From Dictyobacter formicarum (lineage in GTDB: Bacteria > Chloroflexota > Ktedonobacteria > Ktedonobacterales > Ktedonobacteraceae), in NCBI RefSeq assembly GCF_016587435.1, contig NZ_BNJJ01000019.1, positions 1 through 64,000 of the forward strand: a stretch of 64,000 nucleotides of DNA, given 5' to 3'. This document shows positions 927-55,140 of the stretch, piece by piece; position 1 is the first letter of the stretch; each line of letters begins with the position of its first letter. The notes below the pieces were generated by a model. That model was not told the DNA's origin. It saw only the letters and a list, made by a program, of their open reading frames with translations, and did no database searches. A program made the position numbers and the translations under genes.

Positions 927-1049
927 TTTTATTTGTTGGTGCAACACGGTCGCACAGCGACCGTGTTGCACCAACAAATAAAACGCCTTTTGAGTACCGA
1001 AGGTGCGAATCGTCAGGGGCCGCAGGCACGAGCCGCATGGCTTTCAGAC
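927..1049 (+). repeat. Dispersed hairpin repeat, copy R1
   Basis: Perfect 27-bp hairpin (arms 927-953 and 957-983, loop ACA) followed by the conserved tail CTTTTGAG...GTCAGGGGCCGCAGGC...GCATGGCTTTCAGAC. The tail recurs at 5415, 8187, 27596 and 55076, and on the opposite strand near 32780, 33780 and 34700. It fills the space between marC and the rhomboid gene. Confidence 0.85.
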
Positions 1050-1162
1050 CCTGTCTTAAGGCCAGAAGTATGATAGTTCTTTGTATGTACTACGTACTAC
1101 AGCGTATAAGGTCGCAGGTCTGGACCGCAGATTATGCAATAGCTATTGAATCGAACCAGCCG

Positions 1163-1810
1163 TTACTTGATAAACCCACTTGAATGAATGTAGGTGGTGA
1201 TGCCATTGAGCATGAATTGGATCGCCAGGGCCGCCAGCATAATACCCAGGATACGCGATAATACCAGGATGCCGGTTTTGCCCACATGCTTGATAATCCA
1301 GGTGCAACTGCGCATCGCCAGCCAGGCCAGGAAAAGGGCACTGATGATGGCGGCGGCCACCGATATTAAGCTTGCGGGATGAGGCGTAGCCTGCCCGATA
1401 TAGAGGATGGTGGTTGCAATGGTGCCGGGACCAGCAATCATGGGAATAGCCAATGGAAAGACGCTGATATCTTCGCGCGTCATGGCTTCTTCTTCTTCAG
1501 CCTTGGTTTCGCGCGCGCCCGACTGGCGACCAAAGAGCATATCTACGGCAACCAGGAACAACAGGGCGCCGCCCGATATATTAAAAGCGTAGAGCTCAAT
1601 CCCCAGTCGATCGAGCAAATAACGTCCCACGACCGCAAAAAAAAGGATAATGCCTGCACTGATTAGGGTGGCGCGTGCAACAATCACATTGCGCTGCGCG
1701 TTCGTGAAATGTGAGGTAAGCCCTACCACAACCGGAGCCAGTCCAACAGGATCAATTACGGTAAAAAAGGTCACAAATGCACTGATAGTAAAGGTTAAAG
1801 AGATATCCAC
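1163..1810 (-). CDS. MarC family integral membrane protein
   Basis: Predicted six-helix inner-membrane protein of the MarC (UPF0056) family, whose transport substrate is not established. Recognised by FTISAFVTFFTVIDPVGLAPV at the N-terminus, NISGGALLFLVAVDMLF in the middle and PLAIPMIAGPGTIATTI later, with hydrophobic segments in the usual spacing. The product is about 215 residues, the normal family size. An ATG at 1873 would add 21 residues that do not look like the family. The GTG at 1810 has GAGG eight bases upstream and begins directly at the conserved region, so it is preferred. It stands alone, followed by repeat R1. Confidence 0.85.
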   Translation of the reverse strand: MDISLTFTISAFVTFFTVIDPVGLAPVVVGLTSHFTNAQRNVIVARATLISAGIILFFAVVGRYLLDRLGIELYAFNISGGALLFLVAVDMLFGRQSGARETKAEEEEAMTREDISVFPLAIPMIAGPGTIATTILYIGQATPHPASLISVAAAIISALFLAWLAMRSCTWIIKHVGKTGILVLSRILGIMLAALAIQFMLNGITTYIHSSGFIK

Positions 1811-2006
1811 AGATGAAGCCTCGATAAAGTAAAGAAAGTACTGTAAACAAGCCGTCGCTATTATATCACACATGAGTTAAAGGAGATGGTGTTTAGCTTC
1901 CATCCCCTTCACTGTGACGCTTCAATCTGTTGGTGCATAGGATTCTCCAGTCTCAGTACTATCACCACAATGTTATGTTACCTTACTGGCTGGTCCTGTG
2001 ACATGT

Positions 2007-2384
2007 TTATTGTTCTTGTGCCGGGGATGTTGTATATAGGCGGCGACGGCGCGTCCAGTTTCGATAGCTACGATAGGAAACCAGGTACCACAACAATTCA
2101 AACAGGATGGCTGTGCCACTGGCTTTAAGCACCGGGACATCATATATAAGAATGTCCTTAGGAATATTGATGAGCACTACATCGGTGGCGAACCAGATAC
2201 CCATCAAGGCGATAACAAATGTACTGAAAATTCCAAAGGGAACACGACGTCCAAAAACCAGGCGTGCGAGTATCCCTATCACCAGCGCCAGAGCCCAGCA
2301 CAGAAGCTGGCCAGCGCTCAGAAAAAAGTGCATGCCGCTCAGCGCAAACGTAAAAATGACGAAATCGGCGAATATCAAGTTCAT
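2007..2384 (-). CDS. Small four-helix membrane protein, GlsB/YeaQ-like
   Basis: A 125-residue protein with about four hydrophobic helices and a basic C-terminal tail (NWTRRRR). The central stretch WALALVIGILARLVFGRR, followed by a second hydrophobic helix, resembles the GlsB/YeaQ/YmgE (transglycosylase-associated) family in layout, but similarity is weak and the function is unknown. The start is supported by AGGAG five bases upstream. A possible 51-residue membrane peptide lies 58 bp upstream on the same strand, so the two may be cotranscribed. Confidence 0.6.
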   Translation of the reverse strand: MNLIFADFVIFTFALSGMHFFLSAGQLLCWALALVIGILARLVFGRRVPFGIFSTFVIALMGIWFATDVVLINIPKDILIYDVPVLKASGTAILFELLWYLVSYRSYRNWTRRRRLYTTSPAQEQ

Positions 2385-2442
2385 GAGCTCTCCTTTATGG
2401 CTTTTTCAGGTCAACTGCATATACCAGAATGTCCCTGACTCA

Positions 2443-2598
2443 TTACTCTGCTGTATCTGTTACGTAATAGCTGGTAGAATAGGTGAGTGTATACAGCGCT
2501 AATACCATCCAGGCTATTGCTGTGCCTACTTTAACAGATACGTAGAAGATGCCTATAAAGACCCAGATAAATAAGTCCGGTCCAAAAATTCTCAGCAT
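2443..2598 (-). CDS. Possible 51-residue membrane peptide
   Basis: A short frame from ATG 2598 to TAA 2443 encodes MLRIFGPDLFIWVFIGIFYV and then a second hydrophobic run ending YYVTDTAE. The composition is coherent for a two-helix membrane peptide, and it lies 58 bp upstream of the GlsB-like gene on the same strand. The ribosome-binding site is weak (ATAAAAG), so this is a tentative call from hydrophobicity and position only. Confidence 0.35.
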   Translation of the reverse strand: MLRIFGPDLFIWVFIGIFYVSVKVGTAIAWMVLALYTLTYSTSYYVTDTAE

Positions 2599-2895
2599 TC
2601 TTTTATCTATGACTAAATTTTCTCAGATATTATGCTTTTAATTCTGTTACTTATTGTCGCCGTAGTGTCCTGGTCTTGCGTATTAAGAGGGTAAGGGCAT
2701 AAGAGTATAAAAGTTTATCATTAAATGTCTCGCTCGGTGCGTGGATAGCGTCTATTCCTATGTTTTTATTTGTTGATCTCATCAGACCTATTTCTGTTCG
2801 TGTTTGGTGAGTTGAGCATAACGGCAACCACGAGTATTCATGCCCGTGCGTTATAATGGAACAGCATTAATTTACATTGTATTGGGAGGCATGTT
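2599..2895. other. Intergenic region without a recognised gene
   Basis: About 300 bases between the leftward membrane peptide and the rightward membrane-protein operon. It must hold the promoter for the genes beginning at 2896. No RNA gene or hairpin repeat was seen. Confidence 0.5.
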
Positions 2896-3965: not shown

Positions 3966-3966
3966 C

Positions 3967-5340: not shown

Positions 5341-5350
5341 TTGACAGGCC

Positions 5351-5475
5351 CGAACTGTTTTATTATGTAGTGTGAAAATTGTGCCCAGCACAATTTTCAC
5401 ACTACATAATAAAACTTTTTGAGCGCCGCAGGCGCGTAGCGTCAGGGGCCGAAGGCACAAAAAGCAGGCCTCAAA
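5351..5475 (+). repeat. Dispersed hairpin repeat, copy R2
   Basis: Perfect 27-bp hairpin, arms 5358-5384 and 5388-5414, loop CCA, followed by the shared tail (TTTTTGAGCGCCGCAGGCGC, then GTCAGGGGCCGAAGGC). The CCCGAACTGTTTTATT just before it matches the 5' flank of copies R4 and R6. It lies between the convergent MFS and tatC genes. Confidence 0.85.
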
Positions 5476-5498
5476 TATTTCCCCCTGCCACCAAAGAC

Positions 5499-5541: not shown

Positions 5542-5562
5542 ATTTGCTACGAACTACTCGGT

Positions 5563-8059: not shown

Positions 8060-8240
8060 TGTGGTAAAGGGAAGCAAAGCGTCCCCATACGGGCGTCCGC
8101 ATGCGCGGCCGCACTTTTTTTATTCAGGCAATGGTGCAAAAAAGGCGCGCTCGGCGCGCCTTTTTTGCACCATTGCCTGAATAAAACTGTTTGAGCGCCG
8201 CAGGCGCTCGTGTCAGGGGCCGAAGGCGCGAAACCCCTGG
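8060..8240 (+). repeat. Dispersed hairpin repeat, copy R3
   Basis: Longest copy: perfect 33-bp hairpin, arms 8118-8150 and 8154-8186, loop TCG. The 5' flank GGGAAGCAAAGCGTCCCC (8069 on) matches that of R6 and, on the other strand, R5. The 3' tail TTTGAGCGCCGCAGGCGC, then GTGTCAGGGGCCGAAGGCGC, matches the family. It lies between the sigma-factor gene and acpP. Confidence 0.88.
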
Positions 8241-8257
8241 TTTTCATGCATCGTCTG

Positions 8258-27595: not shown

Positions 27596-27658
27596 TGTTT
27601 TGAGCTCTGAAGGAGCGTAGTGTCAGGGGTCGCAGGCACGAACCGCATCGCTTTCACC
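27596..27658 (+). repeat. Dispersed repeat, tail-only copy R8
   Basis: Matches the family tail (TTTTGAGCTCTGAAGGAGCG, then GTGTCAGGGGTCGCAGGCAC and CGCATCGCTTTCA) with no hairpin upstream. It lies directly before the terminator at 27662. Confidence 0.7.
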
Positions 27659-27661: not shown

Positions 27662-27699
27662 CCAAAAGGGCGCTCTGCATTAGCAGAGCGCCCTTTTGG
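27662..27699. terminator. Terminator downstream of the 11-mer repeat gene
   Basis: CCAAAAGGGCGCTCTGC and GCAGAGCGCCCTTTTGG form a perfect 17-bp stem with loop ATTA. On either strand a T-rich run follows. Confidence 0.82.
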
Positions 27700-30026: not shown

Positions 30027-30282
30027 ACAAAGGGTCCTCTCTCAGGAGTGAGCTATACAAACTACAATCTATCTATAGCACGTTCTATGCGCAGCAACTG
30101 TGACGATTGCAGATTTTGAATGCTCAATTAGGTACTGGCAATAGTACATGTCCTGTTTGAGTATAGGCCTTCGCAGTTAAGAGAGCAAGGTCTGCGAAGG
30201 CAGGTGAAGCTCAACGGTATAGTTGCTACCAGATCTGGGATGTTTCGCTCACAACTATGCTTTCCCGATGAAGTGGAAGAGA

Positions 30283-31230
30283 TTACACAATAAACTCCTG
30301 GGCAAAGCGACGCAGAGCCTCAAGATTGGTGCCATCTATAAAACGCAGCAGTAGCTCCTGAACGCCAGCTTCTTCATACACTGCGAGACGCTGACGAATC
30401 GTTTCGGGACTGCCAATCAGGGTGGTATTTACTCTATTTCCGAGCCTGGCTTTGCGTTCAGCAGGAAGCTGCTCCAGCGCCTGCTCATCACTATCTGCCA
30501 TCAGGCAAAGTGTGGTCGAGGTGCGATGAATACTCTCGTAGTCACGTTCCACGGCCGCGCAGTGCTTTTTGAGCACCGCCAACTTCTGCTTCATTGTGGT
30601 CGGATCATCACCTACGTTACAGGCATCGGCGTACCGCGCTACCAATTTGAGCGTCACCTATTCGCCACTTCCTCCGATCAGCAGTGGAATATGAGGGTTC
30701 TGGACATTTGGGGATTGGTGAAGGGGCGCACGCACTTGATAGTATTTGCCCTCGAAGCACGCTTTCTCCTGCGTCCACATTGTGAGAATGACCTGAACCG
30801 CCTCGCGTAACTGGCGCAGACGCTCGGGGCTATCAGGATACTTATAGCCATAGGCACCATATTCGTGTTCATACCAGCCTGCGCCGATGCCAAAGTTGAG
30901 GCGACCATGTGAGATGGCATCGACGGTGCTCGCCATTTGTGCAAGCAGTGCGGGATGGCGATAGCTATTGCACGTGACCATCTGGCCGATACGTATATTT
31001 CTGGTATCACGTGCCAACGCAGCTGTACTCATCCAGCACTCAAACGTCACTTCCTGCGTTGGGTGAGGGGTAGTGTGAAAGTGATCAACCAGCCAGAGGG
31101 ACGTAAAACCCACCTCGTCAGCTGTTTGTGCGACACGTGTCATCGTTTCGTAGGCCTGGATAGGCTCGTTGATATGTGCCAGATCCATAGTCCAGCCCTG
31201 AGGAGCAAGCAAGCCAAATTGTAGTGCCAT
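30283..31230 (-). pseudogene. LLM-class F420/FMN-dependent oxidoreductase interrupted by an in-frame amber codon
   Basis: Luciferase-like flavin oxidoreductase, about 315 residues if uninterrupted. The first half (31230-30658) begins with FGLLAPQGWTMDLAHINEPI and ends IPLLIGGSGE. The codon after that Glu is TAG, where relatives have a residue in IGG-GE-x-TLKLVARYADA. The second half (30657-30283) continues in the same frame with VTLKLVARYADACNVG. So one base substitution breaks the gene. A GTG directly after TAG could allow re-initiation, giving two fragments. A sequencing error or readthrough is also possible. It follows the EamA gene on the same strand. Confidence 0.82.
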
Positions 31231-31258
31231 GATATTCGTTTCCTTTCTGATATAGAGC

Positions 31259-32170
31259 TTATTGGCTCCCTTGCTTCTTATTTGCTTTTCGTATAGTTTT
31301 TTGTTGCGCTTCAGACTCTTTGTGTAGTGCGACTCCAGCAGCGACGAGGAGCAGACCAGCCAGCTCTAGCAGTGTTGGGATCTGGCGCAGGACGATAACG
31401 CCGATAAGGGCGGCCGAGGCGGGCAAAAGGGACAGAAAAAGTGCGAATGTTGCTCTTGGCAAGCGGGCCATGGCGAGTTGATCACTCACATATGGGATCA
31501 CTGATGAGCAAATGCCGACTCCAATGCCTGCCAGGATGAGTATTGGCTGTCCCATTGCAGGCAACGCTCCCGACAGCCCAATGGGAGTCATGGTCACGAG
31601 CGCGATCAACATGGCAACCCCTAGCCGATCAATGCCCGTCGCCCCTCCATTCTGCGCAAGATGATGGCCAAGTACAACGTAGAATGTAAAGAAAGCGCAA
31701 TTGGCAAACGCGAATATAAATCCCCATGGTTGTCCGCTGAAGCGCACATCAGTGAGCAGCCAGCCACCACCCACGGCTAGAACCAGAGCGCTGATGTTCC
31801 GAGGGGTCCGCGCTCCGAGCGCCGCTAAGACAATCGGGCCAATAAACTCAATAGCTCCAACCGTTCCCAATGGAATGAGGGAGATCGCGAGATAGAAGCA
31901 GGCATTCATCAAAGCAAGCACAATGCCTAGAGGAAGCAAGATGCGACACTGTGCCCAAGACCTCCCCGCGAAGATGCGCCATGGTCGACGCCACAACGCA
32001 AAAATAGCAGCCGCACTGGCGATGCGGAACCACGCCACTCCAAGCACAGAGACGCTGGAGAAGAGGAGTACCGCACATGCAGGTCCTAGATAGTGGAAGA
32101 GTGCACTGACGAAAAAGAACACATGTGGTGGCATCGTGTTCACAATGTTCTTTTTCTTCACTTGAAACAT
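31259..32170 (-). CDS. EamA/DMT family transporter (probable amino-acid exporter)
   Basis: Ten-helix drug/metabolite transporter of about 303 residues, with two EamA repeats (LGPACAVLLFSSVSVLGVAW, then LLPASAALIGVIVLRQIPTL). The start at 32170 is supported by AAGGAGG five bases upstream; the longer frame from 32194 lacks this. The gene is divergent from an Lrp/AsnC regulator, 88 bp apart, a layout typical of amino-acid exporters controlled by an Lrp homolog. An RhtA-like exporter is the closest guess, not proved. Confidence 0.85.
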   Translation of the reverse strand: MFQVKKKNIVNTMPPHVFFFVSALFHYLGPACAVLLFSSVSVLGVAWFRIASAAAIFALWRRPWRIFAGRSWAQCRILLPLGIVLALMNACFYLAISLIPLGTVGAIEFIGPIVLAALGARTPRNISALVLAVGGGWLLTDVRFSGQPWGFIFAFANCAFFTFYVVLGHHLAQNGGATGIDRLGVAMLIALVTMTPIGLSGALPAMGQPILILAGIGVGICSSVIPYVSDQLAMARLPRATFALFLSLLPASAALIGVIVLRQIPTLLELAGLLLVAAGVALHKESEAQQKTIRKANKKQGSQ

Positions 32171-32258
32171 ATTACCTCCTTGCCTGGATTTCATGCGTCT
32201 CTATGGTACAATAGACATTGATGAAAATACATGGCAAGTTTGAGGAGATATAGCTTCT

Positions 32259-32768
32259 ATGCCTCAAGATTTAAAGAAAAAGCAGCTCTTCACTTATAAA
32301 CCGTTAGAGGCAGAGATTGACCAGGTCAATGTTCAGATACTAGAAGAGCTGCATCATGATCCACGAGTGACCATGTCGGAGCTCGGGCGCAGGATCGGGA
32401 TGTCATCCCCGGCCGTTACCGAGCGTGTTCGCCGCTTAGAGGAGGCAGGCGTGATCCAGGGATATCGCCTGGAGGTGAATCCGGCAGCCCTTGGGCTCCC
32501 CATTGCTGCTTACATTCGTATCCGCCCACATCCAGGACAACTTTCAAAAGTTGCCGAACTGGCCCGCCAGATTCCTGAAATTGTTGAGTGCCATCGCATA
32601 ACTGGTGAAGATTGTTTCATTCTCAAGGCACATATTCCCTCCATTGAGCAGCTTGATCGGCTTCTCGACTGCTTCCTTGTATATGGCTCAACGACAACCT
32701 CTCTTATCCAATCCTCACCAGTTCCTCTTCGTCCGCTCCCGTTATCCGACGACTTATCGTCGGAGTAG
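32259..32768 (+). CDS. Lrp/AsnC family transcriptional regulator
   Basis: A 169-residue regulator. The N-terminal HTH is clear (DPRVTMSELGRRIGMSSPAV, then ERVRRLEEAGVIQGY), followed by the RAM ligand domain with LPIAAYIRIRPHPGQ and CHRITGEDCFILKAHI. Such proteins bind amino acids and act as local or global regulators. It probably controls the divergent EamA exporter and its own gene. GAGGAG lies about ten bases before the ATG. Repeat R4 follows immediately. Confidence 0.92.
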   Translation: MPQDLKKKQLFTYKPLEAEIDQVNVQILEELHHDPRVTMSELGRRIGMSSPAVTERVRRLEEAGVIQGYRLEVNPAALGLPIAAYIRIRPHPGQLSKVAELARQIPEIVECHRITGEDCFILKAHIPSIEQLDRLLDCFLVYGSTTTSLIQSSPVPLRPLPLSDDLSSE

Positions 32769-32779
32769 GCCAGCGAAAA

Positions 32780-32915
32780 TATTTTTGCACCTGCGGTGCT
32801 CAAAACAGTCTTATGATGTGGTGCAGAAAATATTTTTATGACATTTTCTGCACCACATCATAAGAAACAGCTCGGGCGCGTCAGCGCACGTTCGCAAGAG
32901 AGCGGCATGTATCCC
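32780..32915 (-). repeat. Dispersed hairpin repeat, copy R4 (inverted)
   Basis: Family copy in reverse orientation. The tail complement (TTTTTGCACCTGCGGTGCTC, then AAAACAG) precedes a perfect 22-bp hairpin, arms 32810-32831 and 32843-32864, loop 11 bases. The 5' flank complement (CAGCTCGGGCGCGTCAGCGC) follows. It sits between the convergent Lrp gene and first secreted paralog. Confidence 0.8.
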
Positions 32916-32949
32916 ATGATGATGGGAATTAGCCACTTATTTAGAAGCG

Positions 32950-33696
32950 CTAGATGAAAATGAATGGGTCCATCATATATCGCAGGTCTGTTAGATTTGT
33001 ATTAGCACTTACGCTGGGACCGTTGGTAAAGATAGCGGCTAGCATCTTGCCTGTCTTCGGATTTTTCGCAGCCATATAGAGCTGCCTGGTTTGAGCGTTG
33101 GTAGCTTTGATGGTGACCAGAACCGCTATGCTGGTCCAGATTGTGCCCTGGCTGTTATTAAATGTAATATTACTGGCCATGCAATTTTGCTGGCTGGCAA
33201 CAGGTCCAATTAAGCGATGAAGGAACGCTTCCGGTGTTTCTGCATTAGCGTTGTCCAACTGTACTGTGAGATCCTCTCCATTGGCGCTTCCTTTGGGGTC
33301 GAAGTGAACGCCTCTGGCATCTTGAGACACTACCCAGGGGCGGATTACCTGGATGCCGTTCCCTTCACCATTGTAGTAAGTGGAGAAGCCGTATGCAGGA
33401 TTATTATATTGTTTGCTTGGGAGCGCCTGGGAATGCACGCCAAGGTCAAATGTGGTGCAGCTATCGGCCTGGTAAGGGGAAGACGCGTCTGTGCCGGGTG
33501 TTGTTGGTGTGACACTGGGCATGGTTGGTGTAGCAGTGGGCGTGACACTGGACGTAGTCGTTGTATCGGTGGGAGTAACATTGGATGTAGTTGATGTGCC
33601 AGTTTCAGCAGGGGTCGATTGTCCACATGCTATCAATAGAACAGCTAATATTAACAGGCTGGCAAGTGCAAAGGGAGTTCGTAATAATTTTTTCAT
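32950..33696 (-). CDS. Secreted lipoprotein, paralog 1
   Basis: About 248 residues. The start at 33696 gives a lipoprotein signal peptide (MKKLLRTPFALASLLILAVL, then LIACGQ) with a lipobox Cys near residue 24. A Thr/Pro/Ser-rich linker of about 45 residues follows, then a soluble domain beginning TTFDLGVHSQALP and containing RPWVVSQDARGVHF and KNPKTGKMLAAIFTNGP. No known family is recognised. The longer frame from 33867 only adds repeat-derived residues. It is a tandem duplicate of the gene upstream at 33892. Confidence 0.75.
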   Translation of the reverse strand: MKKLLRTPFALASLLILAVLLIACGQSTPAETGTSTTSNVTPTDTTTTSSVTPTATPTMPSVTPTTPGTDASSPYQADSCTTFDLGVHSQALPSKQYNNPAYGFSTYYNGEGNGIQVIRPWVVSQDARGVHFDPKGSANGEDLTVQLDNANAETPEAFLHRLIGPVASQQNCMASNITFNNSQGTIWTSIAVLVTIKATNAQTRQLYMAAKNPKTGKMLAAIFTNGPSVSANTNLTDLRYMMDPFIFI

Positions 33697-33774
33697 ATAA
33701 TTCAGGCACTTTCTTTTATAAATTACTTGGCTCCGATTAGCTATCTTCTCAGAGCAATAGGAGTAAGTTAGCAA

Positions 33775-33860
33775 AAACAATTTCGCACCTTCGATGCTCG
33801 AAACAGCGTCAGGGGGATAGCGCACTTTGGCTGCGCTATCCCCTGACATATAGGTTGGAT
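33775..33860 (-). repeat. Dispersed hairpin repeat, degenerate copy R7 (inverted)
   Basis: Tail complement (TTTCGCACCTTCGATGCTCG, then AAACAG) precedes a hairpin with arms 33808-33824 and 33832-33847; one extra G in the left arm spoils perfection. It lies exactly between the two secreted paralogs. Confidence 0.65.
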
Positions 33861-33891
33861 GGCTCATGCGTCCCTCTGCAAAAGAGAAACA

Positions 33892-34548
33892 CTAGATGAA
33901 GGCGAATGGATCCATTATGTACCTGAAGTCTTCCAGGTTGGTATGGGCGCTTACATCTGGTCCGTTGGTGAAGATGGCGGCCAGTACCTTGCCAGTTTTC
34001 GGATTTCTCGCAGCCATATAGAGCTGCCTGGTTTGAGTATGAGTAGCTTTGATGGTGACCTGAACCGCGATGCTGGTCCAGATAATGTTGGGATTCCCAT
34101 TAAATGAGCCAAATGAGATCTGGTTGGCTTTGCACATGTGGTGATTGGCGACAGGTTGCATCAAGCGACGCAGAAACGCTTCGGGTGTTTCTGACTTGGA
34201 GTTGTCCAGTTTGACGGTGAGATTCTCTCCATTAGTGCTGCCTTTGGGATAAAAGTGAACGCCTCGGGCATCTTGAGACACTACCCAGGGGCGGCTTACG
34301 TATTTTCCATTGTAGTAAGTGGAGAAGCCATATGTTGGATTATCGTATTTTGTGCTTGGGAGCGCCTGGGAATGTACGCCAAGGTCGAATGTGGTGCAGC
34401 TTGTGACCTTGTATAGAGATGATGTGTTTGTGCGGGATGTGGTCGCTGCACTAGCACTAGCGGAGGTAGGCTGTCCATATGCCACCATTAGAGCTAATAA
34501 TGCTAACAAGCTGGCAAGTATGAAAGGAATTCGTAATAATTTTTTCAT
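33892..34548 (-). CDS. Secreted protein, paralog 2 (lipobox Cys lost)
   Basis: A 218-residue paralog of the downstream gene, sharing the domain (TTFDLGVHSQALPSTKYDNP, RPWVVSQDARGVHFYPKGST, LYMAARNPKTGKVLAAIFTN). The N-terminus is also similar (MKKLLRIPFILASLLALLAL), but the lipobox Cys is Tyr (VAYGQP), so lipidation is probably lost and it would be a soluble exported or membrane-anchored protein. The linker is shorter. Repeat R5 lies upstream. Confidence 0.75.
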   Translation of the reverse strand: MKKLLRIPFILASLLALLALMVAYGQPTSASASAATTSRTNTSSLYKVTSCTTFDLGVHSQALPSTKYDNPTYGFSTYYNGKYVSRPWVVSQDARGVHFYPKGSTNGENLTVKLDNSKSETPEAFLRRLMQPVANHHMCKANQISFGSFNGNPNIIWTSIAVQVTIKATHTQTRQLYMAARNPKTGKVLAAIFTNGPDVSAHTNLEDFRYIMDPFAFI

Positions 34549-34682
34549 AGCAATAGTACTTTTCCTTTTCTTTTTATGAATTGATCAATGTCGATAAACC
34601 GACTAACAGACTTCTCAAAGAAATAATCGCTGCTGTAAGCGAAATGTGTCTTATTTTTGAGGCGATTTTTTAGGATGACATA

Positions 34683-34855
34683 AAACTTGTAGAAAGTGTC
34701 AGGCTCCCACACCTATCGTGGTCTCTCTGCCTCACACTACGTTCCTTCGGAGCTCAAAAGAGGTTTTATGTTGGTGCAAAACGCGCGCACAGCGCGCGTT
34801 TTGCACCAACATAAAAAAAGATTGGGGGCGCTCTGCTTCCCAATGTACTGGGAAG
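34683..34855 (-). repeat. Dispersed hairpin repeat, copy R5 (inverted)
   Basis: Diverged tail complement (ACACTACGTTCCTTCGGAGC, then TCAAAAG) precedes a perfect 25-bp hairpin, arms 34764-34788 and 34792-34816, loop ACA. The 5' flank complement (GGGGGCGCTCTGCTTCCC) follows, matching R3 and R6. It lies between paralog 2 and recG. Confidence 0.82.
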
Positions 34856-34864
34856 CAAACACGC

Positions 34865-37594
34865 TTAGTGTGGCATGAAGTTTTGCCAGAAGAGATACAT
34901 CCGCTCACGCAAGGGCGCATGTTCCGGCTTGCGTAAGTAGGGATCGCTTTGCCAGAGCTGTTCAGCCAATGAGCGTGCCTGCTCGATCAGGGCTGTATCA
35001 CTGAAGTCCGCAATACGCAGTTCCGGCATGCCGCTCTGGCGCACACCGATGAAGTCGCCGGGACCACGTAGCCGCAGATCCTCTTCCGAGAGTTTAAAGC
35101 CATCATCGGTGTCCTGGAAGACTCCCAGGCGTTCCTGGGCCTGGATGCTGGCTTCTGCGCTTAAGACGTAGCAGTAGGATTGATGTTTACCACGGCCGAC
35201 GCGTCCACGGAACTGGTGCAGCTGAGAGAGGCCAAAGCGATCGGCGTCTTCAATGACCATGACGGTGGCGTTAGGAATATCGATGCCAACCTCAATTACC
35301 GAGGTAGCCACCAGAATGTCTAGCTCATGGTCACGGAAACTGTGCATAATCTGATCTTTTTCAGTGGGCTTCATCGCTCCATGCAGTAGACCTACACGCA
35401 AATTAGGAAATACTTCGCGCTGTAAACGTTCATATTCACTGGTCGCGGCTTTGGCTGATAAAGATTCCGACTCCTCGATCAAAGGACAAATAATAAATGC
35501 CTGACGCCCTTCTGCGACCTGGTGAGCGATCTGGGTATAGGCCTCGTTGCGCCGTGTGCCGGTACGCCAGCGTGTGATGATTTTCTGGCGTCCAGGTGGT
35601 AACTGGTCAATCACCGAAACATCTAGATCCCCATAGAGCGTGAGGGCCAATGTGCGCGGAATCGGGGTTGCTGTCATGACCAGCATATGTGGATGCAAGC
35701 CCTTCTGACGCAGTGCATCCCGCTGTTCAACGCCAAAGCGATGCTGCTCATCGACAATGACCAATCCCAGGCTATGGAAGTTTACGTCATCCTGGATTAA
35801 TGCATGGGTGCCAATGGCGACTGCTGCCTGTCCGGATTCTAAAGCCTGGCGCACCAGGTTGCGTTCGCGCTGGCGCTGGCTACCGGTCAACAAGACCGTC
35901 TGGACACCAAACGGTTCCAGCATGACGCTGATACTGCGGGCATGTTGTTCGGCCAGCAATTCGGTCGGGGCCATGATCGCGCCCTGATAGCCATTCAGGG
36001 CCGTCAGAAGGAGGGAGGCCGCCGCGACCGCCGTTTTACCGGCTCCTACATCGCCCTGCAAGAGCCGGCACATTGGTTTGCTTTTTGTCAGGTCGCGGAA
36101 AATTTCATTGATGACCCTCTTTTGGGCGGCGGTAAACGAGAATGGCAGCGTACCCTCAAATGGTTTATCGGTGGCAATGACCGACCAGAGTGTCGAGCCC
36201 AGCAACGGAGATGTGGACTGGCCGGGCGCTGCTTTTTCCTGGTTCTCCACCTGGGTGGAGTCCAGAAAGATGCGATGATCATAGCGTGTAAATGCGTTGC
36301 CGTCCTTAGCCTCGTGCTGCCAGCGTGCGCGCCGCTCCTGCATCCCAAGCTGTAACATAAAAAGCTCATCAAACGCCAGTCGATGATGGGCACTGGCGCG
36401 CAGCTCTTCGTTGTCTGGATAGTGTATTTGCTCGATCGCTCGTGAGAGCATCATCAAGCGACCAGCAGATTGTATGGAGACCGGTAGGTAGTCTGGCACC
36501 ATTTTCGCATAGCGATCAACCACATATTTAGTAAAGCGTCGTAGCGCCTTGGCGCTTAAGCCTTCGGTCAAAGGATAGATGGGCACCATGCGCCCGGTAT
36601 TGAGCAGGTCGCCCTGTTCAGGCAATTCATGGCTGCGTACCGCGAACTCAACTTTATTGCCAAAGCGTTGCTTGACACCAGTCACGACCAGATAGGTACC
36701 ATGTGCGGCTTGTAGCTGTTTCTGTAGATAAGGCTGATTAAACCAGGAGACATACAGCTTACCTGTCTCATCGGAAATGGTCGCGATGGTGCGCGTTCGG
36801 CCGTTGCCGGTACGCTTCATTTCCACGTCCCATATCAGCCCCATCGTCGTCGTGACCTCGTTAAAAGGCACATCAGTGATTTTGGTCAGCTGGCTATAGT
36901 CACGATGTTCGCGTGGAAAGTAGAAGAGCAGATCACGGACCGTGCGTAGTCCCAATGAGCGCAGGCGCGTCGCCACGGTGGGACCGACGCCGGGAATGGC
37001 AGTGATATCAGCGCTCAGCAACGTCAACGCGGTATGTCCCTGGCTCATGCCAGCTTCTAACCGAATGGGATTAGGCGTATTCTGAGGCGTCTCTTTGGGC
37101 CTGGCCTGTTTGAGCGTGGTCGTAGGCTTGCTATTCGTGGCGGCTGGTCTGGCAACTGGACTGGTTTTAGTCGGCGGTGGAACTGCTGCCTTGCGTTGTT
37201 CAGTATTTTTTTGCTCTCGCTGGCTGACCGGTTTGTTGGCCGCGGGCCGCTGGGATACTACTTTTTTGGCGGTTTGAGATGTTGATGATGTGCCCGGCGC
37301 TGCTGTTTCGATTTCATTGAGAATGGCCAGAGCCGCCCGCAGGTTGGCGGCGCGCTGGATAGGATCTTGTTGATGATAGCCGTGGAGATATTCGGTGAAG
37401 CGTTGCAGTGGAGCTGCATCCTGGCCAGTACTCTGGCAGAGCGCGCTCGTATCAGAGTACCAGCGCGCGGTAAACGCCTCTACACCACCAGGTTTGATCG
37501 CCTGATCCTGGTGATTAGTGCGCTGTTCGTGTTGTAGAACTTTGCGTGCACGTTCAATATAGGTTGTGAGTGTTGCAGTATTGCTATTTGACAT
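34865..37594 (-). CDS. recG: ATP-dependent DNA helicase RecG
   Basis: Branch-migrating helicase that rescues stalled forks and processes Holliday junctions. At 909 residues it is longer than the usual 680-820 because of a 190-residue N-terminal extension rich in Thr/Pro/Lys. Then come the HhH-like PGVGPTVATRLRSLGLRTVR, the wedge/OB domain, Walker A GDVGAGKTAVA (commonly GSGKT), DEQHRFG, MTATPIPRTLALTLYGDLDV, and the helicase C-terminal QFRGRVGRGKHQSYCYVLS. The extension may bind DNA or partners; that is inference. Confidence 0.95.
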   Translation of the reverse strand: MSNSNTATLTTYIERARKVLQHEQRTNHQDQAIKPGGVEAFTARWYSDTSALCQSTGQDAAPLQRFTEYLHGYHQQDPIQRAANLRAALAILNEIETAAPGTSSTSQTAKKVVSQRPAANKPVSQREQKNTEQRKAAVPPPTKTSPVARPAATNSKPTTTLKQARPKETPQNTPNPIRLEAGMSQGHTALTLLSADITAIPGVGPTVATRLRSLGLRTVRDLLFYFPREHRDYSQLTKITDVPFNEVTTTMGLIWDVEMKRTGNGRTRTIATISDETGKLYVSWFNQPYLQKQLQAAHGTYLVVTGVKQRFGNKVEFAVRSHELPEQGDLLNTGRMVPIYPLTEGLSAKALRRFTKYVVDRYAKMVPDYLPVSIQSAGRLMMLSRAIEQIHYPDNEELRASAHHRLAFDELFMLQLGMQERRARWQHEAKDGNAFTRYDHRIFLDSTQVENQEKAAPGQSTSPLLGSTLWSVIATDKPFEGTLPFSFTAAQKRVINEIFRDLTKSKPMCRLLQGDVGAGKTAVAAASLLLTALNGYQGAIMAPTELLAEQHARSISVMLEPFGVQTVLLTGSQRQRERNLVRQALESGQAAVAIGTHALIQDDVNFHSLGLVIVDEQHRFGVEQRDALRQKGLHPHMLVMTATPIPRTLALTLYGDLDVSVIDQLPPGRQKIITRWRTGTRRNEAYTQIAHQVAEGRQAFIICPLIEESESLSAKAATSEYERLQREVFPNLRVGLLHGAMKPTEKDQIMHSFRDHELDILVATSVIEVGIDIPNATVMVIEDADRFGLSQLHQFRGRVGRGKHQSYCYVLSAEASIQAQERLGVFQDTDDGFKLSEEDLRLRGPGDFIGVRQSGMPELRIADFSDTALIEQARSLAEQLWQSDPYLRKPEHAPLRERMYLFWQNFMPH

Positions 37595-41378: not shown

Positions 41379-41440
41379 AAACATAAGTCATCCCGACTTT
41401 TTGAAACAAGAGTTTCAAAAAGTCGGGATGACTTATGTTT
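41379..41440. terminator. 29-bp perfect hairpin downstream of leuS
   Basis: Arms 41379-41407 and 41412-41440 are perfect, loop AAGA. It ends 19 bp after the leuS stop and may terminate it; the stem is much longer than a standard terminator and lacks a clean T-run. Confidence 0.65.
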
Positions 41441-41458: not shown

Positions 41459-43936
41459 TTAAGCGTTGCGGACAACAATATTTACCAGGCGGCCTGGAAT
41501 GTAGATGATTTTTTGGACGTTGGCGCTGCTGCCAATGAAGGACTGGACGCGCTCATTGGCCAGTGCCAGTTTGCGTACTTCTTCCTCGCTGATGTCGGCG
41601 GGTACCTCCATACGTTCTCTGACCTTGCCATTGACCTGAACTACCAGCGTGAAGGCTTCGTCTTGTGTCAGTTCTTCAACATAGGTTGGCCATTCGGTGG
41701 TGTGGATGCTGCCTGTGTGGCCGCTCTGCTGCCACAGTTCTTCTGTAATATGCGGCGCAAACGGGGCCAGCAATTGCAGCAAACTACTCAGGGCGTCGCG
41801 ATAAGCAGCGCTATGAGCGACCGTCTCACGCTGTTGCTTGATCAAGGCATTGTTGAATTCCATCAGAGCCGCCAGGGCTGTGTTGAAGCGGAAGTTATTT
41901 AAATCCTCCGTAACACGCTTGATAGTCTTATGGCGCAGGCGCTCAATCGCTTTACTCTCTTTGCTTACGGCCGTATTGGGTTTATTGATCCAGGCATCGC
42001 TAACCAGGGTCCAGACGCGGTTCAAGAAGCGCCAGATACCTTCCAGATTATCGGCCTTGAATGAGCCACCGGCATCAAAGGGACCAATAAACATCATATA
42101 GCAGCGTACAGTGTCGGCGCCGTATTTAGAGACGTATTTGTCGGGTGCCTCGACATTGCCGCGCGATTTTGACATCTTCTGTCCATCTGAACCCAGTACC
42201 ATACCCTGATGGAACAGGCGCTGGAAGGGCTCATCAAAGGTCAGATACCCCATATCATGCAACGCTTTAACGAAGAAGCGCGAGTACAGCAGGTGCAGGA
42301 TGGCATGCTCAACGCCACCGACATACTGATTGATTGGCAGCCACTCGTGCATCTTCTCAGGACTCCAGGCTGCCGTGTCATTATGTGGATCGGCATAGCG
42401 CAGATAATACCAGGAAGAGTCAATAAACGTATCCATCGTATCAGCTTCACGCGTAGCAGGTCCACCACAGACCGGGCAGGTGGTGTTGACAAAGTCTGGC
42501 TCATAGCGCAGCGGCGACTCACCAGTAGCCTTAAACTGCACATTTTCTGGCAGGAAGACTGGCAACTGATCCTCTGGTACGAGCACTGTGCCATGCTCTG
42601 GACAATAGACAATGGGGATGGGCGCACCCCAATAGCGTTGGCGGCTAATCAACCAGTCGCGCAGGCGATAATTTACTTTACTGTGGCCGATTCCTTTTTC
42701 TTCGATGTAGGCAATGACGCGCGCCTTTGCTTCTTCACCAGGCGTACCATCAAAAGGACCCGAATTGACCATCACGCCCAGAGCCTCTTTGGCTTCTGTC
42801 CAGGTGGCTGGATCGGTTGCCTCTTCTCCCTCCGCGCGGATAACCTCGCGGATAGGGATGCCAAATTTACGCGCAAACTCGAAGTCGCGCTGATCGTGGG
42901 CGGGTACACCCATAATCGCGCCAGCACCATAGCTCATCAGCACATAGTCAGCGATCCAGACTGGAATTTCCTCGCCACTCACAGGATTAGTGACATAGGC
43001 ACCGGTAAAAACACCGCTCTTCTCCTTTTCGGTGCTCATGCGCTCAATCTCGGTCATGCGCCGCGCCTGTGTTACATACTCATCTACCTCGGCTTGCTGT
43101 TGAGGGGTCGTAATTTTCTCGACCCAGGGATGCTCAGGGGCCAGCACAAAGAAGGTGGCGCCATAGATAGTGTCGGGACGTGTGGTAAAGACTGGAATTT
43201 CCTCGGTCTGACCATCGATTTCGGCGCTAAAACGAATCTCAGCGCCCTCGCTCCGACCAATCCAGTTACGTTGCATGGTAATTGTCTTCTCGGGCCAGTT
43301 CACCACCTCAGAAAAATCCAGCAGGCGTTCGGCATAGGCAGAGATTTTCAGCAGCCACTGATCGATCTCTTTACGGATCACCACGCTACCGCAGCGTTCA
43401 CAGGTGCCATCGGCCAGTACCTGCTCATTAGCCAGCGTGGTATTACAGCCTGGACACCAGTTGGCAGGAGCCTTGGTACGATACGCCAGACCCTTTTTAT
43501 AGAATTGCAGAAACAGCCACTGAGTCCATTTGTAGTAATCGGGCAGACAAGTAATGACCTCACGCTGCCAATCCCACTGGGCACCCATGGCGCGCAATTG
43601 CTTGCGCATATTTTCGATATTGGCCAGTGTCCAGGTGCGCGCCTGAATGCCACGCTTGATCGCAGCATTTTCAGCTGGCAGGCCAAAGGCATCAAAGCCG
43701 ATGGGCTGCATAACGTTATAGCCCTGCATACGTTTAAAGCGGCCATAGGCATCGAAAGGGGAATAGTTATACCAGTGGCCCATGTGCAGGTCCCCTGAGG
43801 GATAAGGGAACATTACCAGGTGGTAGAAATTTGGCCTGGACGAGTCATCGGAAGCGTGATAGATCTGATCAGCCTCCCATTGCGTTTGCCACTTGTTCTC
43901 AATCTCTTTTGGATCATATTTGGTATGTGTAATCAT
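41459..43936 (-). CDS. leuS: Leucyl-tRNA synthetase
   Basis: Charges tRNA-Leu with leucine and edits misactivated amino acids. The 825-residue class I enzyme has the HIGH-type motif [19 protein letters not shown], the zinc-like [14 protein letters not shown], the CP1 editing domain ([20 protein letters not shown]) and KMSKS in [26 protein letters not shown] lies four bases before the ATG. Upstream lie a T-box antiterminator/terminator, a tRNA-Ala gene and a Stem I-like T-box half. Confidence 0.96.
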
Positions 43937-44033: not shown

Positions 44034-44090
44034 CAAAAAAACCTTCCATCCGTAAAGGGACGAAAGGCTTTTCCGTGGTACCACCCTGAT
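44034..44090 (-). promoter_or_regulatory. leuS T-box, antiterminator/terminator half
   Basis: On the minus strand, AGGGTGGTACCACGG is the conserved T-box. It is followed by CCTTTCGTCC and GGATGGAAGG, which pair over ten positions, and a run of seven T: the competing terminator. It starts 19 bases after the tRNA-Ala and ends about 100 bp before leuS. Where a T-box leader normally continues upstream into Stem I, there is instead a tRNA gene. Confidence 0.88.
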
Positions 44091-44108
44091 TTTCGATCAA
44101 AGTGGCGT

Positions 44109-44184
44109 TGGTGGACCTGAGGGGACTCGAACCCCTGACCTCCTCCATGCCATGGAGGCGCTCTACCAGCTGCGCTACAAGCCC
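44109..44184 (-). tRNA. tRNA-Ala (anticodon GGC)
   Basis: A 76-nt cloverleaf with encoded CCA. The acceptor GGGCTTG pairs with CAGGTCC; the anticodon stem is CCTCC/GGAGG around loop ATGGCAT, anticodon GGC (reads GCC). The T-arm has GGTTCGAGTCC. It is transcribed toward leuS and lies inside the T-box leader. Confidence 0.94.
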
Positions 44185-44225
44185 ATGTGTTTGTATAACT
44201 GGTGCGCTACCAAGATCTACTCTTT

Positions 44226-44254
44226 ATTATACGCGATAACGGGCGTACCGACAA
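44226..44254 (-). promoter_or_regulatory. Promoter of tRNA-Ala (GGC)
   Basis: On the minus strand, TTGTCG and TATAAT are separated by 17 bases, ending 41 bp upstream of the tRNA 5' end. It lies between the two T-box halves. Confidence 0.65.
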
Positions 44255-44269
44255 GTGCTACTAAAAGCT

Positions 44270-44375
44270 TCACACTTATTGCTCCCAGGCGAGTTCGGTC
44301 TTGGTTCGCAGTCTCGCACCACCCGGCTGCTCTCTGAATCAGGGCGACCTACTACTCCTGCTCGTCGCTTTCTCT
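44270..44375 (-). promoter_or_regulatory. leuS T-box, Stem I-like 5' half with Leu specifier
   Basis: The minus strand reads in order GACGAGCAGGAGTAGTAGG, AGAGAGCAG, GGTGCGAG, GAACTCGCC, CTGGGAG. These match the order of conserved T-box Stem I elements. The base triplet after GAA is CTC (Leu). The serS leader at 54740 has the aligned arrangement GAAATCCACCCTGGAG with TCC (Ser). The half lies upstream of the tRNA-Ala gene and its promoter. Confidence 0.78.
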
Positions 44376-50394: not shown

Positions 50395-50664
50395 GACAAC
50401 CTTTCCTTCACTGTGAACATAACTGCCAGGATCTGCCACCACCAGAACATTCTTTCAGGCTCCTGTTCTGTAGGCGCAAAACCATTCTCTATCTGGCATT
50501 TCTCTGATATGTTCTTCTTAAATATTTGTTGTCATTAACACGTTGTCCGGCCAACCAATGCGACAATCTGGCTGACAGCTGAATGACTTATCCTGAGAGA
50601 TAGTTAAAGAAGACAAAAACAACTTGCCAGACTGTGTCTGACAAGTGTGATGCATTTACGTAAA

Positions 50665-51375: not shown

Positions 51376-51513
51376 ATGATATCCTGATTTAAGGCACGCT
51401 CAGCGGTGCCCCTTCTCTCTAGATTTGTGTTGTACACATTTCGCTGCACTTATATATACGGCTGCTTGGATAAACCATAGGTAATATATCTCAAAATAGG
51501 AGAGGATACAAAG

Positions 51514-52008: not shown

Positions 52009-52079
52009 AGCAGGCGGTACTCAATTAAATGAGCATAGCCGCCTGAAAAGCTGATCAGTTATGCTGTAGCCTGGATGTT

Positions 52080-53156: not shown

Positions 53157-53235
53157 GAATACAGTAGACTGGCTGCCCTGTGGGCGACCTTCACCAGGAA
53201 AGTCGCCCATGGTGTTTACTGGCAAATGCGCTTAC

Positions 53236-54516
53236 CTAGCGGCCAATGAATTTCTGTCCTCCCATAAATGGGCGCAGCGCCTCAGGAATGAGAATGCTGC
53301 CATCGGCTTGCTGGTGCGTCTCCAGCAGCGGAATCAGGATGCGTGGCGAGGCAATGGCTGTATTGTTCAACGTGTGAACGAATTTCACCTTACCCTCTTC
53401 ATCGCGATAGCGCAGGTTCACGCGGCGTGCCTGCCAATCGTGCAGGTACGAGCACGAATGAGTTTCGCGATAACGTTTTTCGCTTGGTACCCAGCATTCT
53501 ATATCATACATTCCAACTTTGCCATCGCCCATATCGCCGGTGCAGACATTGACCACGCGGTAAGGGAGTTCAAGTTCCTGGATTAATTCCTCGGCATTCT
53601 GTAGGAGCTGCTCGAACCAGAAGACCGACTCCTCATGGTCCGCTTTACAGATGATATATTGCTCTACCTTGTTGAACTGGTGAATGCGGAAGACGCCACG
53701 GGTATCTTTGCCATAAGTGCCCGCCTCCTGTCGGAAGCAGGGGCTATAGCCAACAAACTTCAGTGGCAACTCTTCGCCCTTCAGAATCTCGTCTTTATAC
53801 ATACCTGTGATTGAAACTTCAGCGGTCCCAACCAGGAAGAGGTCCTGATCTTTAAGTTCATACACCTGGTCACGACCCTTGGGGAACTGACCATTGCCGA
53901 CAAAGGCGAAGTCGCGGGCCATCGAAGGTACGATGAGTGGTGTGAAGCCCTTGCGCGACATTTTGTCCATCGCGAAATTAATCAGGGCTAACTCTAGCCT
54001 GGCTGCGTCTCCACGGAGCACATAGCTGCGCGAGCCCGCCACTTTGACGGCCCGTTCAATGTCGACCAGATTATGTTTGAGCATCAGATCGTAGTGATCC
54101 AGCGCCTGGAAATCGAATTTGGGAGCTTCTCCCCAGTATTTAAATGGAACGTTCTCGCTATCATCTTTTCCAACTGGAGCGCTGGGATCTGGAATGTTAG
54201 GTACCAGCAACAGCAGATTATAGCGCTCTTCAATCAACTGATGCAGCTCGGGCTCTTTGGCTTTAATGAATTCAGCCAGTTTCTTGCCTTCCGCAATTAA
54301 ATTATTGCGCAGTTCGGTATTTTTCTCTTTGGCGGCCTGCTGAATACCCTTTGATAGCTGATTCTGTTTGGCACGCGCCTCTTCCACTTCATGTTGGAGG
54401 GCGACAACCTGTTGATCTAATGCCAGCAGGGCATCAACATCGATCGAATTGTTTTTCAGCCGTGCCGCTTCTTTTACTACATCGGGATTGCTACGAATAA
54501 ATGCAAGATCAAGCAT
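53236..54516 (-). CDS. serS: Seryl-tRNA synthetase
   Basis: Charges tRNA-Ser. The 426-residue class II enzyme has an N-terminal coiled-coil arm (AKQNQLSKGIQQAAKEKNTE), motif 2 PCFRQEAGTYGKDTRGVFRI, and motif 3 NNTAIASPRILIPLLETHQQ. GAGGAG lies upstream of the ATG. A complete T-box leader with a TCC specifier precedes it. Confidence 0.96.
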   Translation of the reverse strand: MLDLAFIRSNPDVVKEAARLKNNSIDVDALLALDQQVVALQHEVEEARAKQNQLSKGIQQAAKEKNTELRNNLIAEGKKLAEFIKAKEPELHQLIEERYNLLLLVPNIPDPSAPVGKDDSENVPFKYWGEAPKFDFQALDHYDLMLKHNLVDIERAVKVAGSRSYVLRGDAARLELALINFAMDKMSRKGFTPLIVPSMARDFAFVGNGQFPKGRDQVYELKDQDLFLVGTAEVSITGMYKDEILKGEELPLKFVGYSPCFRQEAGTYGKDTRGVFRIHQFNKVEQYIICKADHEESVFWFEQLLQNAEELIQELELPYRVVNVCTGDMGDGKVGMYDIECWVPSEKRYRETHSCSYLHDWQARRVNLRYRDEEGKVKFVHTLNNTAIASPRILIPLLETHQQADGSILIPEALRPFMGGQKFIGR

Positions 54517-54582
54517 GCTATGTTCTCTCCTCTTTCACCCCGCGTGCCTCCACTGTGTCTGTGGACCACGCAATCGATAGGC

Positions 54583-54840
54583 AATAAAAAAACGCCGCGT
54601 CCTGACTCAAGGACGACGACGCTGAATGCGCAAAATCGTGGTACCACCTTACTTCTTCCAATGCGTAAGGATAACTGAGAAGCATTGGAACTCATTACGG
54701 CCCGATAACGGAGGCTTCCGTTGACGCTTAGCGCGTAGGCTCCAGGGTGGATTTCCCTCTCGCATAGACTGCGTCGCACCAACCCGCAGTTCTCTGCCCT
54801 TTTATGCTAAGAGCTACTTGTCCCATTCATTGCCCACTTT
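54583..54840 (-). promoter_or_regulatory. serS T-box leader
   Basis: On the minus strand: ATGGGACAAGTAG, CAGAGAACTGCGGG, GGTGCGACG, GAAATCCACCCTGGAG with Ser specifier TCC, then AAGGTGGTACCACG (T-box), and a GC-rich terminator hairpin followed by seven T. Uncharged tRNA-Ser should stabilise the antiterminator. This leader is uninterrupted, unlike leuS. Confidence 0.9.
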
Positions 54841-54861
54841 ATGATATATGATGTATGTTTT

Positions 54862-54890
54862 AGCATAGCAGTGGCCCTGGTATTTGTCAA
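54862..54890 (-). promoter_or_regulatory. Promoter of serS
   Basis: TTGACA and TATGCT on the minus strand are separated by 17 bases, just upstream of the T-box leader. Confidence 0.75.
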
Positions 54891-54961
54891 CCCCTCGACA
54901 ATTTTTTCTATGGCTGTGAAAAATGTTACAATGTTTATGAAAGTGTCTGAAGTCCATGACG

Positions 54962-55140
54962 ATGGGAAGTCAAGCGCCCCGTGCGGGCGGGCGCATGTGC
55001 TCCCGAGCTATTTTTATTTATATGTTGGTGCAGCTATTCGCGCTTTGCGCGAATAGCTGCACCAACATATAAAAGATCTTTTGAGCGCTGTAAGCGCGTA
55101 GTGTCAGGGGCCGCAGGCGCGAAACGTATGGCTTTCAGAC
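54962..55140 (+). repeat. Dispersed hairpin repeat, copy R6
   Basis: Most complete copy. The 5' flank GGGAAGTCAAGCGCCCCGTG, then GCGCATGTGCTCCCGAGC, leads to a perfect 27-bp hairpin (arms 55017-55043 and 55047-55073, loop TTT). The tail TTTTGAGCGCTGTAAGCGCG, GTGTCAGGGGCCGCAGGCGC and ATGGCTTTCAGAC follows. It lies between the divergent serS leader and the glycosyltransferase gene. Confidence 0.88.

Follow-up and report, generated by a model that had tools for sequence, protein, structure and literature searches.

Prokaryotic miniature inverted-repeat transposable elements (MITEs), for example Chunjie and QMITE2, are non-coding, about 200 bp long and intergenic, carry terminal inverted repeats and short duplications, and derive from insertion sequences (ISs) (PMC10969869, in its accessible parts). 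Repetitive extragenic palindromic (REP) sequences tagged with GTAG/CGTC form subfamilies with complementary stem changes, and GTAG repeats have been reported in Chloroflexi (PMC3733652, as far as its available text goes). Perfect inverted repeats have been surveyed in 118,019 genomes, and the portion of that main text available mentions none of Chloroflexota, Ktedonobacter and Dictyobacter (PMC13155455). At the mutational level, homogenisation of two arms together with inversion of the spacer is a reported signature of polymerase template switching between inverted repeats (PMC8604942), and a two-arm change accompanied by loop inversion is regarded as its strongest support, such cases being extremely rare in rRNA (PMC8794818; both papers as available in part). 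Here we describe a family of palindromic repeats first noticed in a stretch of 64,000 nucleotides from Dictyobacter formicarum (NZ_BNJJ01000019.1, positions 1 to 64,000; hereafter the window), and compare it with D. aurantiacus, D. kobayashii, D. vulcani and D. arantiisoli. With a probability of roughly three in four, the repeats are MITEs of about 200 bp that are moved in trans by transposases of the IS5 family, duplicate 3 bp of target (mostly TNA) on insertion, and have a long central palindrome kept perfect through copying at the DNA level and not through selection on RNA. They appear to be small parasitic DNA in a soil bacterium, borrowing the cutting enzyme of another element and presumably serving no function for the host.

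The tail of the repeat, searched with at most one mismatch, gave 63, 28, 22 and 137 matches in the four Dictyobacter genomes, the highest number in D. arantiisoli (137), and one in Tengunoibacter, compared with 0–1 matches per genome for the reversed pattern used as control. A complete element would consist, in order, of a terminal repeat, a G+C-rich 5' hairpin, the long central palindrome, a tail hairpin of the form GAGC(A/G)C..G(T/C)GC and a second terminal repeat. The terminal motif was found on both sides in 52 of 150 palindrome copies (44 of the 52 from D. arantiisoli), a few of these matches looking spurious. The 44 listed D. arantiisoli copies with both ends are mostly 195 bp from GTGT to ACAC, and the four bases ahead of GTGT are mostly CAAA, GAGA or GAAT. 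At one fixed offset, four positions outside the motif, 26 of the 52 copies show a 3-bp match, against a mean of 8.0 and a maximum of 13 duplications at the best offset in 300 shuffles; 20 of the 26 triplets are TNA (TAA, TTA, TGA, TCA) and the rest are ATA, CAA, TAG and CAT. In a smaller first set the duplication was present in 10 of 22 copies (shuffle maximum 6). A rule of 5-bp duplication, suggested by the window copies at 927 (GTATG) and 54962 (TTATG), was rejected as the larger set gives 3 bp.

Ends matching those of the repeats were found on IS5-family elements (NF033580) of 968–1101 bp in D. kobayashii and D. aurantiacus. In D. kobayashii three such elements (L242, L243, L245) are 1079 bp long, have two overlapping open reading frames (ORFs) of 161 and 180 aa, and start with AGAATGTGTCTGACTCCC, one base from the AGAATGTGTCAGACTCCC that starts some D. 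arantiisoli copies; those of D. aurantiacus start with AGAGAGTGTCAG (L222, after TT, and L226) or AGAGTGTGTC (L230, L234). The IS ORFs that were tested match the IS5 family transposase model NF033580, and by reading the same 3-bp TNA borders six of seven such IS copies, the exception being L222. It is the agreement of the ends with IS5 ends, together with the 3-bp TNA duplication, that makes IS5-type transposases acting in trans the likely agents that move the small elements; these transposases would recognise ends of the form GTGT(C/T)NGA(C/T)TCCC with four variable bases ahead. Within the IS5 family the comparison is with the IS427/IS1031-like groups. The repeats themselves are short, dispersed and multi-copy and, judged by their length, apparently without coding capacity; at about 200 bp they leave no room for a transposase of their own, which an IS5-family IS encodes. 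They share with MITEs the terminal inverted repeats, the target site duplication and the ends held in common with an autonomous IS.

Comparison with the relatives also reveals empty sites. The site of the copy at 927 is uninterrupted in D. aurantiacus, with one GTATG at the junction as opposed to two around the window insert; D. kobayashii lacks this copy as well and has about 30 unrelated bases there. The copy at 54962 is absent from the syntenic site of both species, and the three copies between 32780 and 34870 sit within a 4.7-kb segment missing from all four relatives. The intergenic sites of copies 5351 and 8060 hold palindromes of different sequence in D. aurantiacus and D. kobayashii. 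At the 5351 site the flanks are reversed in orientation in D. kobayashii, so that an independent insertion is possible there. At the 8060 site the palindrome is likewise perfect both in D. aurantiacus, at 38 bp, and in D. kobayashii, at 37 bp. When the stems of the three species are aligned, 11 of 33, 13 of 33 and 20 of 35 positions prove different, and none of the stems has a mismatch. The sequence-only reading of the window had proposed a non-autonomous mobile element, and copy numbers, target duplications, ends matching IS5-family elements and empty sites all back this proposal; of the checks it suggested, a search of related genomes, a comparison of copy positions (here between species) and a mapping of termini and target duplications are reported above.

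A feature that the sequence-only reading had not remarked upon is that the two arms of the palindrome vary together. Among 4241 arm pairs from the 150 copies there were only 27 mismatches (13 A-C, 6 G-T and 8 other), and 129 copies were perfect; arm length ranged from 14 to 42 bp, the middle 80% being 23–36 bp. This sample excluded copies with a weak hairpin score, a gap of more than 16 bases, an N or a diverged tail, included eight copies from loci fetched otherwise, and held five of the seven window copies (927, 5351, 8060, 32780 and 54962). As these copies had been found through their hairpins, the analysis was repeated on D. arantiisoli copies selected solely for their flanks: 56 of 67 had a perfect stem and six had one mismatch, and the remaining five, which by reading comprise four deletions and one mosaic, lacked a long stem. 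Changes from the consensus in both arms outnumbered those in one arm by 232 to 12 in D. arantiisoli (71 copies, a sample from the genome with 137 tail matches), 398 to 10 in D. aurantiacus (45) and 144 to 3 in D. kobayashii (17). Since such counts are inflated by shared descent, each of 67 D. arantiisoli copies was compared with its nearest perfect allele: 44 differed in both arms only, four in one arm only and four in a mixed way, and 15 were identical, which by sites amounts to 131 two-arm against 11 one-arm differences. Exactly one two-arm pair separates 16 of the 67 from the nearest perfect allele. Mismatch of an arm with its own partner (0.6–1.1%) and with other copies (41–66%) is an overstated contrast, because stems were anchored at the loop without alignment, and it is not relied upon. 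Probably, one arm mutates, the polymerase then switches template across the hairpin so that the change is copied into the other arm, and this switch sometimes flips the loop.

The loops bear directly on how the arms are kept alike. In perfect D. arantiisoli copies GAA and TTC occur 11:12, ACA and TGT 6:7, ATA and TAT 4:4, and GTA and TAC 1:1 (22:24 in total); every loop type that occurs more than once has both orientations, 12 further loops being singletons, and both orientations are found in 4 of 34 distinct 20-bp stems with 3-base loops. The numbers in D. aurantiacus are small (1:4, 2:2, 0:2 and 1:1). Two-arm changes in a hairpin are usually read as strong proof of a selected RNA structure, and a functional RNA (a terminator, an mRNA stabiliser or a regulatory RNA) whose pairing is kept by selection and compensatory mutation would agree with the long, strong intergenic hairpins, the location of copy 5351 between convergent genes, the GGTGCA core common to many stems and, by reading, the palindrome-plus-tail at seemingly corresponding places in two or three of the genomes G037–G039 discussed below. 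G-U wobble is however rare, A-C mismatches being twice as common as G-T, the loops lie about equally in either orientation, the copies occur in both orientations relative to genes with that at 54962 between divergent genes, and a T-run paired with an A-run at the base of the stem (by reading) leaves no canonical 3' terminator T-tract. The near-absence of G-U pairs and the free orientation of the loops therefore point to arm copying at the DNA level, probably by template switching, and make a functional RNA improbable. Only slightly better placed, and still unlikely, is that the palindrome moves as a block between copies by non-allelic gene conversion, which would replace both arms at once. Some stems do recur in many copies, and one arm of a mosaic D. 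arantiisoli copy (L129) matches that of a neighbouring copy, so conversion between copies seems to occur as well; it cannot, however, create new two-arm variants such as those one pair away from the nearest perfect allele, loop inversion does not follow from it alone, and the palindromes that different species have at a shared site likewise differ on both arms together. With more than 100 copies of a mobile element, mixed loops and almost no G-U pairs, the two-arm pattern can arise from DNA copying alone. If this is true, a mutational route that is debated (PMC8794818, in the part available) becomes directly measurable in a culturable bacterium, and covariation in such genomes should be taken as RNA function only with caution.

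Mobilisation by a transposase of another kind was also considered. A REP/REPIN-type family moved by a REP-associated tyrosine transposase (RAYT, Y1) has in its favour that GTAG follows directly after a GCGCCGCAGGCGC hairpin in some tails, that weak Y1 matches, read as RAYT-like, are present in three of the four genomes, and that a complete element adjoins a Y1 fragment in D. vulcani (L194). A search for PF01797 in the four Dictyobacter genomes nevertheless gave 29 Y1 loci, of which only two (L184 and L194) had a tail-like plus an end-like match with at most two mismatches and one (L194) an adjoining element, and no tail or end motif lay near the three weak RAYT-like matches. The number of Y1 genes does not track that of copies, D. 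arantiisoli having a single Y1 match alongside its 137 tails, and the arrangement of a RAYT gene flanked by repeats was not found. Terminal repeats and target duplication are features of DDE-type elements. RAYT mobilisation was on these grounds rejected and is very improbable. An IS4-family parent was likewise tried and rejected: in L088 and L104 an IS4-like transposase gene lies directly next to the tail, and longer flanks place the IS inside the element, where it occupies the slot of the central palindrome and is therefore read as a later insertion.

Such insertions were seen in two D. vulcani loci (L317, L318), where an IS4-family IS lies between the 5' half and the tail, and by reading in a D. 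arantiisoli locus (L132) in which part of one arm is left; an end-motif search of L319, which covers this same case, was negative. The central hairpin thus looks like an insertion hot spot, and ISs inserting into REP palindromes are known (PMC1525189, as available in part). In the window a perfect 29-bp palindrome at 41379-41440 resembles an IS4-family terminal repeat (CATAAGTCATCCCGA, compare TATGAGTCATCCCGA of the D. vulcani IS in L317) and is possibly a mini-element made of terminal repeats only.

That perfect inverted repeats are in excess beyond the mobile family is a third argument for DNA and against RNA. In the window 16 have arms of 12 bp or longer, and in 10 the arms reach 20 bp or more, compared with none in each of 10 first-order Markov simulations, and four of these ten (16774, 40444, 41379 and 59936) lie outside the family. 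For arms of 20 bp or longer, the density of perfect palindromes per 100 kb is 15.6 for the window, 17.5 for D. aurantiacus, 10.4 for D. kobayashii, 5.5 for D. arantiisoli and 2.5 for D. vulcani. For comparison, 15 loci from other Ktedonobacteria gave 3.2, and 60 loci from other bacteria, of lower G+C (35%), gave 0.3. The excess is thus strong in three lineages, those of the window, D. aurantiacus and D. kobayashii, and not genus-wide. At position 79834 of the D. aurantiacus block the left flank of a terminator-like hairpin is the inverse of its right flank, unlike in D. kobayashii, a change that may have gone in either direction. A loss of SbcCD was considered as a possible reason why the palindromes are tolerated. 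SbcD (TIGR00619) gave weak matches, none over the cut-off in 10 of 10 Ktedonobacteria, whereas 8 of 14 control genomes were over it; the strongest of these matches fall within open frames of about 440–510 aa, and a single one was examined, a metallophosphoesterase and perhaps Mre11-like. SbcC (TIGR00618) was over the cut-off in none of the 10 Ktedonobacteria, yet in only one of the 14 controls. It is tempting, if doubtful, to speculate that some Dictyobacter lineages are in a palindrome-homogenising state, in which template switching is frequent relative to point mutation, so that hairpins in neutral DNA would become and stay perfect, grow outward by copying of their flanks and flip their loops to equilibrium; the mobile family would then serve as a set of parallel replicates and the palindrome excess would be a by-product. 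If the arms are indeed copied at the DNA level, Dictyobacter would be a place to seek altered palindrome repair, and the family looks like a natural assay of palindrome homogenisation.

Several observations weigh against IS5-mobilised MITEs with template-switched arms. Recognisable terminal repeats are found in the window only at 34683 and 54962, most window copies being degraded, and the copy at 927 has ends of another kind and a 5-bp repeat. A duplication is missing from half (26) of the 52 copies that have the motif at both ends, and some of the end matches are probably spurious. None of the four IS5-type (DUF4096) matches in D. arantiisoli has matching ends in a 9-base seed search, so the partner may have been lost, be too diverged, be of another type or lie outside the assembly. 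In L194 of D. vulcani, a gap of about 100 bp separates a complete element (positions 1230-1440) from a match to a truncated Y1 transposase. As to the palindrome, both-arm counts partly reflect shared descent between copies, selection on a DNA cruciform could likewise favour perfect arms, and no mutation has been observed while occurring; the excess of palindromes is absent from the D. vulcani block, which falls below the other Ktedonobacteria. Finally, the stem diverges no faster than its surroundings, identity between 55 D. arantiisoli copies being 81% for the stem and 74% and 63% for the 40-nt flanks. The stem of D. arantiisoli is accordingly not unusually variable; what is unusual is the agreement of its two arms.

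The palindrome-plus-tail module is wider than the genus. In the order, 13 of 47 genomes have a tail match, and outside the four Dictyobacter genomes more than one match was found only in G037 (19), G038 (9) and G039 (14). A hairpin with a score of at least 15 lies at most 12 bases before the tail in 20 of the 24 loci fetched from these three genomes, 17 of them without mismatch, and the module therefore extends beyond Dictyobacter. No terminal repeats were noticed at these loci, though no search was aimed at such repeats, and it was within Dictyobacter that the mobile form was tested. In D. arantiisoli copies also form head-to-tail arrays (L135, L145 and L146). A run of N lies inside the palindrome of one D. 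arantiisoli copy (L141), as is expected if such hairpins block sequencing or assembly, and copy counts from draft genomes may be low. D. kobayashii has a second repeat family of the same plan and with different flanks (L114-L117 and L206-L215, e.g., at block positions 27665, 164627 and 254518), in which by reading a variable perfect palindrome starting GTGTGGAGTGTG is followed by a GGCGCCGCAGGCGCC tail hairpin.

In the window itself, seven hairpin copies and one tail-only copy were located, in agreement with the sequence-only reading as to position and as to their occurrence on both strands (Table 1). Six of the seven hairpins have perfect arms of 23–33 bp, and by reading an extra G in one arm makes the seventh imperfect. 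The shared 5' flank and 3' tail claimed for the copies do align, so that the likeness goes beyond the palindrome, although not every copy carries both: by reading, the flank GGGAAG...CCCGAGCT is missing from copies 927 and 33775, GCCCGAACTG is its sole remnant at 5351, and the tail GTCAGGGG...TTTCAGAC is missing from copies 32780 and 33775, which have the GAGC..GGTGC tail hairpin only. The match to described ISs concerns the ends of the partner and not an IS body, and Rfam at the gathering threshold gave no match for any window copy. That the copies lie only between genes holds if the ORFs 32950-33867 (-) and 54981-56489 (+) start further in, which is probably where their true starts are; as listed, their 5' ends overlap copies 33775 and 54962. 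A copy upstream of two divergent genes was correctly recognised at 54962, and no transposase was seen among the annotated neighbouring genes, a subset of the window ORFs having been annotated.

Table 1. Copies of the repeat family in the window (in brackets, the approximate position by which each copy is named in the text).
Feature	Position	Strand	Parts	Boundaries and setting
Copy 1 (927)	892..1072	+	palindrome 927-983, arms 27 bp, loop ACA; tail 987-1049	insert 897-1067 flanked by GTATG direct repeats 892-896 and 1068-1072
Copy 2 (5351)	5347..5475	+	GCCCGAACTG flank; palindrome 5357-5415, arms 28 bp; tail 5416-5460	between convergent MFS and tatC genes
Copy 3 (8060)	8069..8253 (3' limit approximate)	+	5' flank GGGAAGC from 8069; palindrome 8118-8186, arms 33 bp; tail 8188-8246	
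Tail-only copy	27596..27656	+	without central palindrome	
Copy 4 (32780)	32784..32934	-	tail hairpin 32784-32808; palindrome 32809-32865, arms 23 bp, loop 11; 5' flank to ~32934	
Copy 5 (33775)	33785..33850	-	tail hairpin 33785-33807; imperfect hairpin 33808-33847, one-base bulge	
Copy 6 (34683)	34691..34870	-	tail 34741-34763; palindrome 34764-34816, arms 25 bp	3' terminal repeat AGAAAGTGTCAGGCTCCC 34691-34708; 5' terminal region GGGAAGCAAACACGCTTAGTG 34850-34870
Copy 7 (54962)	54935..55151	+	5' hairpin region 54961-55009; palindrome 55017-55073, arms 27 bp; tail 55078-55142	TTATG direct repeats 54935-54939 and 55147-55151 around terminal repeats AGTGTCTGAA / TTCAGACAC; between divergent serS (53236-54516, -) and PMT_2 protein gene

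The window is almost throughout collinear with D. aurantiacus, aligned blocks of at least 200 bases being 76–91% identical, and the best segment of the recG product (34865-37594) has an identity of 90% with D. aurantiacus, 88% with D. kobayashii, 87% with D. vulcani and 79% with D. arantiisoli. The 4.7-kb segment missing from the four relatives (30111-34869) holds two tandem paralogous genes (32950-33867 and 33892-34548) without a Pfam match, which are bordered and separated by three repeat copies; these copies may have helped the duplication. Elsewhere in the window, a T-box leader (44053-44374, -; RF00230, 106 bits) lies upstream of leuS (41459-43936, -) and contains a tRNA-Ala(GGC) gene (44109-44184) between its 5' domain and its antiterminator, with a tRNA-Ala(CGC) gene just upstream. 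A tRNA-Ala pair with the same anticodons is present in the recG-region loci of D. aurantiacus, D. kobayashii, D. vulcani, Tengunoibacter and Ktedonospora, where the tRNA genes only were compared.

Open-access literature on Ktedonobacter and Dictyobacter repeats, MITEs, IS5, REPs and template switching does not describe the family in the titles and abstracts of the matches listed. The nearest systems each share part of its features. With the IS5 family (NF033580) it has in common the TNA-type 3-bp duplication and the end sequence, one D. kobayashii IS agreeing with some D. arantiisoli copies at 17 of the first 18 bases, whereas an IS5 element has its own transposase gene and the Dictyobacter element, with none inside, would depend on the IS in trans. 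GTAG-tagged REPs resemble it in their complementary stem changes, and some Dictyobacter tails end in GTAG, yet the GTAG stems are mostly 6–9 bp, at the longest 12–13 bp, and often show G-T pairs, unlike those of the Dictyobacter family (PMC3733652, available text). The described prokaryotic MITEs differ in that the accessible parts of PMC10969869 contain no case of a palindrome with arms mostly of 23–36 bp that is variable between copies, perfect within each and freely inverted in its loop. Template-switch homogenisation leaves the same signature, i.e., homogenised arms and an inverted loop or spacer, and its cases are yeast protein genes and rRNA hairpins (PMC8604942; PMC8794818; the portions available), whereas the Dictyobacter family offers many copies as parallel replicates. 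MITEs and template switching are thus each known, and it is their combination at such a scale that looks new.

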